A model generated the notes under the pieces. The model was not told the origin of the DNA and ran no database searches. It saw nothing but the letters and a program-made list of their open reading frames with translations. Of a stretch of DNA of 64,000 bases, positions 60,435-64,000 are shown one piece after another. Made by a program: the position numbers and the translations under genes. Source of the stretch: Pirellulales bacterium. GTDB lineage: Bacteria > Planctomycetota > Planctomycetia > Pirellulales > PALSA-1355. Position 1 is the first letter of the stretch, and the number at the start of each line of letters is the position of its first letter. The stretch is from positions 70,896 through 134,895 of the forward strand of contig JALHMI010000007.1 in the NCBI GenBank assembly GCA_022844125.1. The letters are read 5' to 3'.

Positions 60435-62714
60435 CTACCGGCGCGAATCCCCCAGCAAAGATTCCACCGAATCGCCGCTGAGCAGCGCGTCACCGCTGGG
60501 GCTGATCGCCGTGGCCAGAGCGCCTAGATCGGCCCGAATCGCCAGATCGAACCAGTAGCCGATCACGCAGCCCAGAAAGCCCGTTGCCGCAATGGCGCCG
60601 AGAACGTCGCGTGCAACTTCATTGAGTAGCAGAGCGGCGAGCGCAAGAAACGGCACCGCCACGGTCAGACCAAGCACTCCTCGGCCAAGCCGCGCCAGAT
60701 GGGCCAGTTCCGGCAGGACGCGTGCGTCGGGCCCACGCGCTTGTAGCAGCCAGGGAAAGCACACGCGCACCGACAAATACGTGACTACGTAATAGCTCTG
60801 CGTCGCGGCGATCAGCCCGCAGAGCATGTTCGAGACGACGAAGTGTACGTAGGCCGCGGCCGAGATCGGCGCCTCGGTGGCGCCGAACCTGAGCCACGTG
60901 GGAAATACAAAGCCCGAGACGGTCCACAGCGCGGCGCTGACACCGGCCGTCGCCGCCCCCAGCCGCAGGCAGCGGCGCATCACCTCGTACGACGGCGGCT
61001 CTGCTAGCTGCTCGCCGCGCGCCAGTTTCTGCAGCGTGCGAAACATCTGCCAGCGCGTCCGCACGATGTATCCCAACCCGATCGTGTAGGCGATCGAGTT
61101 GACCGCCATGATTTGCTCGCCGAAGAAGATATGCCGCGCCTGTTCGCCCAGGTCGTCCACGATCTGGCTGAAGTTGTAAACAACGTTCAGTGCGCTCAAG
61201 ATGATGTTCGGCAGCAGTCCGATCAGGATCGTCGTCGAAACCGGATGCCGCCGGGCGAACGCGCGCACCCTGCCCCGCGCGTGCAATAGCGAACGCGCGC
61301 GTGGCTGCAGGCACAGCTCCAGCTCGCGCGCGACCTCCGCCGCACTCGCATAGCGCTTGTCCGGATCGGGCTCCAGACATTTGAGCAGCACTTCGACGAC
61401 TTCCGGCGGGCAATCGCGCGGAGCACGAGCCCGGTCGGTGGCCGACATGCCCTCGCGGCGCAAAGCGGTCATGGCCGCCAGCGCCAGCGACCAATCGGCC
61501 GGCATCGCCACATCGGTGAATGGCCGCACGCCGGTCAACATCTCCCACAGCACCAATGCCAGTGAGTAGACATCCGCGCGACCATCGATCTCGTCCGGCT
61601 GGCGACTGTGGGCCGGATTGTAGGCTTCAAGCTGCTCGGGCGACATGTAGGCCAGCGTCCCGCCAAAGTAGGCCGCCGGGGTTACGCCGTCGAGCTTCGA
61701 GCAACTGATGTTGAAATCGGCCAGCCGAGGCTGGCAATCGGCGCCAATCAACACATTCGCCGGTTTGATGTCGCGGTGCAGAATATCGACTGAGTGCGCA
61801 TGCGCGAGCGCTCCGGCCAGGCGAGCACCCATCCAACAAACCACCTCGGGCCACTTCGCGCCCGCCAGTTTGTAACGCGTCAACGAATCGGCCGGCGGCT
61901 GCTCGCCGTTTCTCGCCAGCGCGTCATCGACCGCGGCCAGCAGCAGCTTGCCGGTCGGAATCGCGGCCGGGTGGTTCCGCACGTGGTCCAGCACGCCGTG
62001 CAGCGTTCCCCCCGGCACGTATTGCATGTACAACAGCCGCAGATTCTGCGCGGGAATCTGCCGCTGATCAAACACCCGCACGATGTTCGGGTGCTCGAGC
62101 TGCGCCAGCGTCTGCGGCTCGAAGCTGCGATCGCGCGAGATCTTGAGCGCCACCACGCGGTGCATAGACGTCTGCCGAGCGCGAAACACCGAGGCGAACG
62201 CTCCGCGCCCCAGCGGCGCGAGGAGCTCAAAGTCTTCGATGGTCTGACCCGGCTCGAAGCACAACATCTTCCGCACGTCGACCAACATCGTCGAATGCGT
62301 CGGTGCGTCGCCGCCCAACAGACGCCGCAATTCATCGGCCCGAGTCGGAAACCGATCGCAGTACTCACCCAGCGTGACGTCCTGCCCCTGCTGTCGGCGG
62401 ACGTGAAACTCCTCGTACACCAGGTCGCAGGGAATCGCGCCATCGGCAGCCAGCTCCGGAAACTCCGCCAGATATTCTTCCAGCAATTTCGGAAATCGCA
62501 GCGCCTGCCAACGATGCTCCAGATCAACCTTGATGACTTCGATGAGTGTCAAGCGACGCAGATTAGGCGGACCAGCGGGCACAAACTCGGCAAGTTGCGG
62601 AGGCTCGCTCGCCGTTTGCCACGAGCCGACCAGGCGATCGATCGCCTCGCTCAGGCGATCCCAGATCTGGGAAGCGTCGTGAGGCGTCAGAGTGTCTGCC
62701 GTGTGCGACGTCAT
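60435..62714 (-). CDS. Ser/Thr protein kinase with DFN motif and C-terminal membrane domain
   Basis: A 759-residue kinase. The N-terminal 165 residues are helical and lack a known motif. The kinase domain follows: LGRGAFASVF glycine loop, VVALKIS lysine, HRDIKPANVL catalytic loop, then ADFNIS where DFG is expected, and GTLAYMSPEQ. The C-terminal 260 residues hold about six membrane helices (ILIGLLPNIILSALNVVYNF onward). DFN at the magnesium-binding position also occurs, as far as I recall, in a planctomycete kinase group, so it may be active. The start is the ATG at 62714; a TTG at 62762 is possible. Confidence 0.85.
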   Translation of the reverse strand: MTSHTADTLTPHDASQIWDRLSEAIDRLVGSWQTASEPPQLAEFVPAGPPNLRRLTLIEVIKVDLEHRWQALRFPKLLEEYLAEFPELAADGAIPCDLVYEEFHVRRQQGQDVTLGEYCDRFPTRADELRRLLGGDAPTHSTMLVDVRKMLCFEPGQTIEDFELLAPLGRGAFASVFRARQTSMHRVVALKISRDRSFEPQTLAQLEHPNIVRVFDQRQIPAQNLRLLYMQYVPGGTLHGVLDHVRNHPAAIPTGKLLLAAVDDALARNGEQPPADSLTRYKLAGAKWPEVVCWMGARLAGALAHAHSVDILHRDIKPANVLIGADCQPRLADFNISCSKLDGVTPAAYFGGTLAYMSPEQLEAYNPAHSRQPDEIDGRADVYSLALVLWEMLTGVRPFTDVAMPADWSLALAAMTALRREGMSATDRARAPRDCPPEVVEVLLKCLEPDPDKRYASAAEVARELELCLQPRARSLLHARGRVRAFARRHPVSTTILIGLLPNIILSALNVVYNFSQIVDDLGEQARHIFFGEQIMAVNSIAYTIGLGYIVRTRWQMFRTLQKLARGEQLAEPPSYEVMRRCLRLGAATAGVSAALWTVSGFVFPTWLRFGATEAPISAAAYVHFVVSNMLCGLIAATQSYYVVTYLSVRVCFPWLLQARGPDARVLPELAHLARLGRGVLGLTVAVPFLALAALLLNEVARDVLGAIAATGFLGCVIGYWFDLAIRADLGALATAISPSGDALLSGDSVESLLGDSRR

Positions 62715-62815: not shown

Positions 62816-62881
62816 TTCATAACCCGGCGCGTGAGCGAGGCTCTTTCTTCAGGATTCCTCGCTCACGCGTCGGGTTGTGAA
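62816..62881. repeat. Long palindrome, probable REP-like element
   Basis: A 25-bp stem: 62816-62840 pairs with 62857-62881 across a 16-base loop (CTCTTTCTTCAGGATT). On the plus-strand RNA the only two non-Watson-Crick positions are G-U pairs. The core CGCGTGAGCGAGG is, from memory, akin to palindromes scattered between genes in Pirellulales genomes. There is no T tract, so it is more likely a dispersed extragenic palindrome than a terminator. Only one copy is in this window. Confidence 0.7.
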
Positions 62882-63000
62882 AGTTCCCGCCGCTATTTTG
62901 CCATGAGCGCAAAACGCAAACCCGCGGCGCCTTTTCGAGCTTTGGGGGCTCGTCGGACGCCGCGGTTCGCGGGGCCAGATGATGATCGACTCGGTTGGGT

Positions 63001-64000
63001 CTACTTCACGGCCACCTCCAGTTGTGTGCGGTCCACGATGGCAATGTTGTTCACCTTATCGACCTCACCGATCAGGTTATCGCAGTCCGCCGCCACGAGC
63101 AGGTGCGTGAAGGCCGTCGTCTTGCCGTCGGCCGCGAGTTGCATCGCGGAGTGGGGCAGCCGCACAGTCACTTCGTTCGATTGACCGCTCGCCAGACCGG
63201 CCACGTCGACCAGGGCCATCGGAGACTTTGCGTCGGCCGTTCCATTCACCGAGGCCACGATCGCCACGCGGAACGCTCCGGCTGCGGCCAGTCCCTGGTT
63301 GCGGAACTTCACCCGATAGGCCGGGCCAACCAGCATCGTCGCGGGCTCCACGTACTGGATGTCTTCCAGCACCAGGTCGACTCCGTTGGTGCCCGTCGCG
63401 GCAGGAACCGTCGCCGATACCGGCGTCACTTCGCTGACCACGATCGGAGGAGCTTCGTTGACGATCACCGTCGGGGTCGGGCAGTAACCCGAGTTGTAGT
63501 TGTTCCAGTATCCTCCGGTGTAGATCGGCCAGAAGATCGGCCACGGGCACTTGTTGTGGCAGTGGTTGCCGCCGTTCCCATTGCCATTGCCGTTGCCGTT
63601 GCCGTTGCCTTGGCCGTTGCCTTGGCCCGGATCGAGAACCGGAGGCTGTCCGCCGGGGAACGGATCGAACGGAGGCTGGACGATTGGGGGCTTACCACCG
63701 GGAAACGGGTTCAGCACGCCGCCCATCAGCGGACCTTGGTCGATCACATTCCCTGGGAACTTCTTGATCTTGCCGGGCAGTGTGACCCGGTTGCCCGAGT
63801 TCGTCGTCGGCATTGTCTTGATCAGCGGCTTGTTCCAAACCTGGTTGTGCAGGTTCGAGTTCAGCGGCTTGAATTTCGTGATCTTCGGCGTGCTCAGCAC
63901 GTTAGGGTTGATTTGCGAACTGCCGATCTTCTTAAACTTGCCGTTCGAGCTTCCCAGGTTCATGCTGCGAAACTGGCTTCCGCCGCTCGACTTCATCGAC
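63001..64000 (-). CDS. Gly-Asn-repeat protein with CARDB-like C-terminus (5' partial)
   Basis: The frame is open to the window edge, so the true start lies beyond 64000; an internal ATG at 63996 is not preceded by a ribosome site. The visible part has a low-complexity N-terminus, Pro/Gly-rich runs, and a GN-dipeptide repeat (GNGNGNGNGNG, about residues 125-140) encoded by TTGCCG/TTGCCA hexamer units at about 63570-63630. The last 130 residues (YVEPATMLVGPAYRVKFRNQGLAAAGAFRVAIV, ADGKTTAFTHLLVAADCDNLIGEVDKVNN) look like a CARDB adhesion/cell-surface domain. It is probably a secreted surface protein. Confidence 0.75.
   Translation of the reverse strand, partial: SMKSSGGSQFRSMNLGSSNGKFKKIGSSQINPNVLSTPKITKFKPLNSNLHNQVWNKPLIKTMPTTNSGNRVTLPGKIKKFPGNVIDQGPLMGGVLNPFPGGKPPIVQPPFDPFPGGQPPVLDPGQGNGQGNGNGNGNGNGNGGNHCHNKCPWPIFWPIYTGGYWNNYNSGYCPTPTVIVNEAPPIVVSEVTPVSATVPAATGTNGVDLVLEDIQYVEPATMLVGPAYRVKFRNQGLAAAGAFRVAIVASVNGTADAKSPMALVDVAGLASGQSNEVTVRLPHSAMQLAADGKTTAFTHLLVAADCDNLIGEVDKVNNIAIVDRTQLEVAVK

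Follow-up and report, generated by a model that had tools for sequence, protein, structure and literature searches.

The palindrome at positions 62816-62881 of the window, the 64,000-nucleotide stretch of Pirellulales DNA analyzed here, is very probably a REPIN-like non-autonomous element, mobilized in trans by an enzyme of the class 3 TnpA(Y1)/RAYT type. Elements of this kind are known, though little studied.

Structure and genomic context of the palindrome

The palindrome has two arms of 25 nt each (62816-62840 and 62857-62881; 92% complementarity) separated by a 16-nt loop, and its 25-bp stem contains 23 Watson-Crick pairs and two G-T pairs. With its two T/G pairs counted, the + strand is paired along the full 25 positions, giving a folding energy of -50.6 kcal/mol (z = -10.3). 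None of 200 shuffled sequences was as stable, and the palindrome folded together with its flanks reaches -51.9 kcal/mol (z = -8.7). The long palindrome noticed in the original prediction is thus real and far above chance, and it is indeed the strongest of the near-perfect hairpins of the window. A search for a terminator-like T tract at 62816-62881 found none, in agreement with what had been noted before, and no Rfam match came near a gathering score.

Both neighboring genes are as first described, and both lie on the - strand: a Ser/Thr protein kinase (PF00069, 60435-62762, with a start codon that may be the ATG near 62714) and a Gly-Asn-repeat protein with a CARDB domain (63001-63996). The - strand is therefore the coding strand on either side, and in this strand both G-U pairs become A.C mismatches and the fold weakens to -41.1 kcal/mol. 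The stem had been called perfect as RNA, which is true of the antisense (+) strand; the coding strand carries two A.C mismatches. Since both neighbors are on the - strand, the transcript most plausibly crossing the palindrome has the mismatched version. The G-U pairs had also been read as a sign of selection on RNA structure, and this argument fails because, of the two strands, it is the one antisense to both neighbors that has them; the arm-to-arm differences across copies, moreover, include many types other than transitions. RNA-level selection as deduced from these pairs was accordingly rejected. A separate stable hairpin at 62895-62990 on the - strand (-42.1 kcal/mol, z = -2.7) lies outside the element and directly 3' of the CARDB gene. 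It is possibly the terminator or 3' end of that gene, and is a better candidate for this role than the palindrome.

A dispersed repeat family with sharp boundaries

In its own genome (G000; 6.44 Mb in 27 contigs), the 18-nt arm core has 105 matches at no more than one mismatch, versus one match for the reversed control, and a permissive cut-off gave 111 matches to the element with both strands counted. The arm is thus far from unique, and with related copies in other planctomycetes the dispersed repeat suspected from the sequence is confirmed. An arm alignment drawn from 60 stretches of this genome yielded 71 class-A arms with the consensus TCAYAACCCGAMGCGTNAGCGAGG, a 24-nt unit at whose outer edge the information rises from 0.23 to 1.79 bits and at whose inner edge it drops from 1.71 to 0.38. 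Class-B arms (n = 29) read TAGCCCGA..., often TGGTAG..., and then GAGGG. Individual class-A units fold weakly, with nearest-neighbor energies of -5.6 as RNA and -3.3 as DNA.

The palindrome consists of two class-A units, inverted around 16 nt. Unit 1, TCATAACCCGGCGCGTGAGCGAGG, occupies 62817-62840 on the + strand with its 5' end outward, and is delimited by the class-A consensus and the jump in information at the edge. The spacer (62841-62856, not assigned to a strand) was placed from the arm alignment. Unit 2, TCACAACCCGACGCGTGAGCGAGG, occupies 62857-62880 on the - strand, and together with its outer base is identical at 24 of 25 positions to the inverted repeat of a transposase gene on contig C3 (see below). 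The whole doublet, which like the spacer has no strand of its own, was assigned to 62816-62881 from the fold and the inverted arms; conservation starts sharply one base inside each end, and the T/A pair at the very ends may belong to the host.

Arms often occur singly as well as in doublets. The fetched stretches of the genome contain 48 inverted pairs with up to three mismatches per arm, and the commonest spacer lengths in the genome are 16-17 and 28. The original prediction had pointed to copies and target sites as the thing to check: there are about 100 copies, and none of 30 well-matched pairs shares 4-7 nt direct-repeat flanks, the mark of a target-site duplication, at any tested offset. 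A simple codon-based gene caller placed two of the 79 copies inside called genes and the other 77 outside them or at the edges of stretches, although the coding fraction of the sequence is 0.79. Between classified genes, 39 copies are in co-directional, 16 in convergent and 19 in divergent gaps, near the expectation from intergenic length.

The arms were also observed in larger arrangements. About three tandem copies of a unit of roughly 182 bp containing these arms are present at G000:C15:173418-173831 (L071). A repeat starting TTTGAAGTTGCGCCAGCRTGCTAGCAG directly adjoins an arm truncated at one fixed place (CCTCGCTNACGC..|TTTG) in all seven of its copies (L384-L390, at G000:C2:288879, C6:104, C8:105, C14:244670, C16:113, C19:120913 and C27:26193), six of which are at contig ends. 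IS110/IS1111-type elements target REP units elsewhere, and the TTTGAAGTTGCGCCAGCRTGCTAGCAG repeat looks like an insertion sequence targeting these REP units.

HuH/Y1 transposase genes between copies of the repeat

The PF01797 profile identified ten Y1_Tnp genes in the genome. One of these HuH/Y1 genes, a 160-aa open frame at G000:C3:340217-340696, is enclosed by a perfect inverted repeat of TTCACAACCCGACGCGTAAGCGAGG (25/25), spanning 618 bp end to end; TTCACAACCCGACGCGTAAGCGAGG differs at a single position (24/25 identical) from the right arm of the palindrome read on the - strand. Another, at C4:95173-95727, has class-B arms on both sides (28/31), and its protein is 39% identical to that of the C3 gene. 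No genes other than HuH/Y1 genes were found between these arms in the genome, and in the stretches inspected around the remaining eight Y1_Tnp genes these arms were not seen as flanking pairs. The original prediction had suggested looking for a RAYT; a RAYT-type gene is present, flanked by the arm of the palindrome, and the idea of a non-autonomous mobile element is supported. The Y1_Tnp genes at L060, L065, L066 and L068 have flanking inverted repeats of their own (for example GTTAATAGCCGGGGGTGGAAACCCCCGG and ACGCGGCCACCTGTGGCAC), which suggests that there are several REP or TIR families in this genome.

Judged by their sequences, the proteins match the signatures of class 3 TnpA(Y1). In an alignment of 20 proteins, N92, H93, H95, Y158 and Q163 are invariant and W137 is nearly so. 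The candidate class 3 proteins keep NH(V/I/L)H, W and Y----Q in 20 homologs over a 155-position profile, and all 20 homologs match Y1_Tnp. A sequence search of solved structures returned only weak IS200-type matches (2f4f, E = 0.025).

Distribution across Planctomycetota

The exact inverted-pair pattern occurs in at least 120 stretches of the named genome collection, and the 80 matches listed all bear titles of Planctomycetota or planctomycete taxa, among them Neorhodopirellula pilleata, Stieleria tagensis and Gemmataceae MAGs. Among these matches the repeat is planctomycete, as first proposed, which does not prove that it is absent elsewhere. The proposed range of Pirellulales was too narrow, given the related copies in Gemmataceae and other planctomycete MAGs and in further families of the phylum. 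Within the stretches fetched from the 80 named contigs, no transposase was found at E<=1e-4.

Ten or more arm copies were counted in 11 of 392 genomes of the phylum (G000, G015, G017, G085, G102 with 880, G308, G338, G342, G374, G395 and G405). The transposase type (E<=1e-10) is found in all 11, versus 52 of the 392 overall (Fisher P = 8e-11), where the cut-off of ten was picked after the counts were seen and the 11 genomes are not independent, since they include two congeneric pairs. Neither of the two transposase genes inspected in G015 is flanked by the canonical arm.

Two congeners differ in the presence of a doublet 3' of a gene that they share. In G017 the doublet sits after the gene's own terminator; in G374 the homologous gene keeps its terminator, no doublet is present within the fetched flank, and the far flank is not syntenic. 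For the G338 copies in G405, and the reverse, no clean empty site was obtained, as the intergenic DNA is too diverged or rearranged. A different repeat family is represented in G338 at L339:2829-2910, with about 25 matches in its congener G405. A doublet of G395 usually has one allele in both arms (GCGCAAGC with GCTTGCGC, GCGTCAGC with GCTGACGC); its spacer is constant in length (often 15 nt) and variable in sequence.

Arms and transposases diverge together

Most of the homologous genes in other genomes are also surrounded by inverted arms, which differ in sequence (for example TAGCCCCCTGCGTAAGCAGGGGGCA, CGAGCCGCGTGCGTGAGCACGCGG, CAAGCCCATCGCGTAAGCGATGG and GAGCCCGGAGCGTAAGCGACGGG). Of 34 arms, 32 can be drawn with a GNNA tetraloop on a stem of two or more pairs, a count that is partly built in because the parse looks for GNNA loops; under unconstrained folding, the loop forms in 30 of 34. 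The second pair of this hairpin is G-C, C-G or A-T, the outer pairs differ among arms, and in most arms the part in between is either an internal loop of GA/GA type or a stem with Watson-Crick pairs throughout. Across 20 pairs, distances between arms and distances between proteins are correlated (Mantel r = 0.56, P = 1e-4); shared ancestry alone can give such a correlation, so that it shows co-inheritance without proving specificity. At the putative foot, class-A arms carry CCGA, which several homologous arms, TAGCCCCCTGCGTAAGCAGGGGGCA among them, lack. The arm alignment favors nnAG, or AAC further out, over the published class 3 CnGA: class-A arms have YAAC before CCGA, and TAG, partly GTAG, is found in class B only.

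Alternative explanations and proposed mechanism

A very stable intergenic hairpin could also be a bidirectional terminator, a 3'-end stabilizer or an RNA-processing site kept by RNA selection. REPs elsewhere can play such a role (PMC3733652), and copies in co-directional gaps are indeed closer to the upstream 3' end (median 72 versus 153 nt). However, a terminator or 3'-stabilizer family should be depleted between divergent genes, and the 26% observed there among copies between classified genes, which is the share predicted by intergenic length, speaks against this. The earlier suggestion of an RNA-processing site is undercut in the same way, as copies in convergent, co-directional and divergent gaps roughly track intergenic length. 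The lack of a T tract, the A.C mismatches in place of G-U pairs on the coding strand, the terminator that the neighboring gene has in relatives with and without the doublet, and a distribution that tracks the transposase and not the genes all make this explanation very unlikely. A terminator role was rejected on the absent T tract and the lack of enrichment between convergent genes.

Inverted ends and many dispersed copies might also mark a MITE derived from a conventional DDE insertion sequence, with terminal inverted repeats that coincide with these arms, but we regard this as highly improbable: only HuH/Y1 genes were found between the arms in this genome, the target-site duplication expected of a DDE enzyme is seen in 0 of 30 pairs, and the arms form hairpins by themselves and are often found alone. 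A chromosomal or uptake binding site unrelated to the transposase, such as a DNA uptake sequence or a nucleoid-protein site, would fit the many near-identical copies and the frequent inverted pairs. It is nonetheless extremely unlikely for a family that is patchy in the phylum, co-occurs with and flanks the transposase gene, and changes its arm sequence along with the transposase.

For a REPIN-like doublet served by a class 3 enzyme, we envisage that each 24-nt unit, when single-stranded, would form a small hairpin with outer C/G pairs, a GA/GA-type internal loop and a GNNA tetraloop, adjoining a short 5' foot; the whole doublet could also fold into one long hairpin. The class 3 HuH endonuclease, encoded elsewhere in the genome between inverted units, most likely recognizes the unit and would cut single-stranded DNA next to the foot. 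The doublet would then be moved or copied in trans into intergenic DNA, without target-site duplication. That the enzyme binds and cuts the unit, where the foot lies and that the doublet transposes in trans are inferred from the IS200/IS605 and REP systems. Any effect of the element on the neighboring genes is probably incidental.

We see an even chance that the class 3 transposases of Planctomycetota read single-stranded DNA hairpins that all follow one rule, with a GNNA tetraloop, an AG-type foot and either a tandem G.A internal loop or an equivalent full stem, that protein and repeat co-diverge in each lineage, and that these enzymes constitute a separate REP-RAYT lineage. If so, that lineage has its own recognition logic. 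Class 3 was earlier proposed as a possible IS200/IS605-to-REP intermediate on the basis of few proteins and manually inspected structures. The present genome offers a concrete pair, the C3 transposase and its 25-mer end, together with solo units and doublets that number about 100; the survey adds about 30 transposase-arm pairs with correlated divergence (tested on 20), so that the recognition rule is directly testable.

Comparison with known systems

CGTC-tagged REPs (PMC3733652) are similarly short, dispersed palindromes and mostly head-to-head dimers, but they carry the CGTC tag and have no linked transposase, whereas here only arms that have C at the M position contain CGTC, and there is a linked transposase. 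TIRYT elements (PMC3733652) resemble the present system in having an HuH gene between inverted repeats and solo repeat copies elsewhere. PMC6006769 places most TIRYTs in subclass 2.1; the proteins here, in contrast, bear class 3 signatures.

The passage of PMC6006769 on class 3 TnpA(Y1) describes systems in Planctomycetes, Acidobacteria and Proteobacteria whose HuH proteins have NHVH, W[TA], Y----Q and a 155-aa profile, and whose genes have atypical hairpins on both sides, in some cases at high copy number (about 600 in Solibacter usitatus), with the 5' tetranucleotide CnGA as the foot. As in that description, the proteins here have an NHVH-type motif, W, Y----Q, the N-terminal conserved region and the 155-position profile, and the C3 and C4 genes and most homologs are flanked by hairpin-forming repeats. 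Where the published foot is CnGA, the most regular features of the approximately 30 flanking arms here are a GNNA hairpin with a GA/GA-type loop or full stem and a putative foot that ends in AG, or in AAC in the class-A arms of this genome. The inverted doublet and the co-divergence of protein and arm are seen here and do not figure in that passage.

REPINs, the REP doublets associated with RAYTs (PMC3116915), share with this element two short palindromic units inverted around a short spacer, an intergenic location, many copies and a tyrosine HuH transposase, and here too the RAYT-type gene at C3:340217-340696 is flanked by the unit found in doublets (25/25 inverted repeat). They differ in the unit, which here has 24 nt and a weak internal hairpin, and in the transposase, which here is of class 3, not class 2. 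The GTAG foot belongs to the class 2 superfamily and is not found in the class-A arms, class B often having TAG and sometimes GTAG; we therefore call the element REPIN-like, and not a class 2 REPIN.
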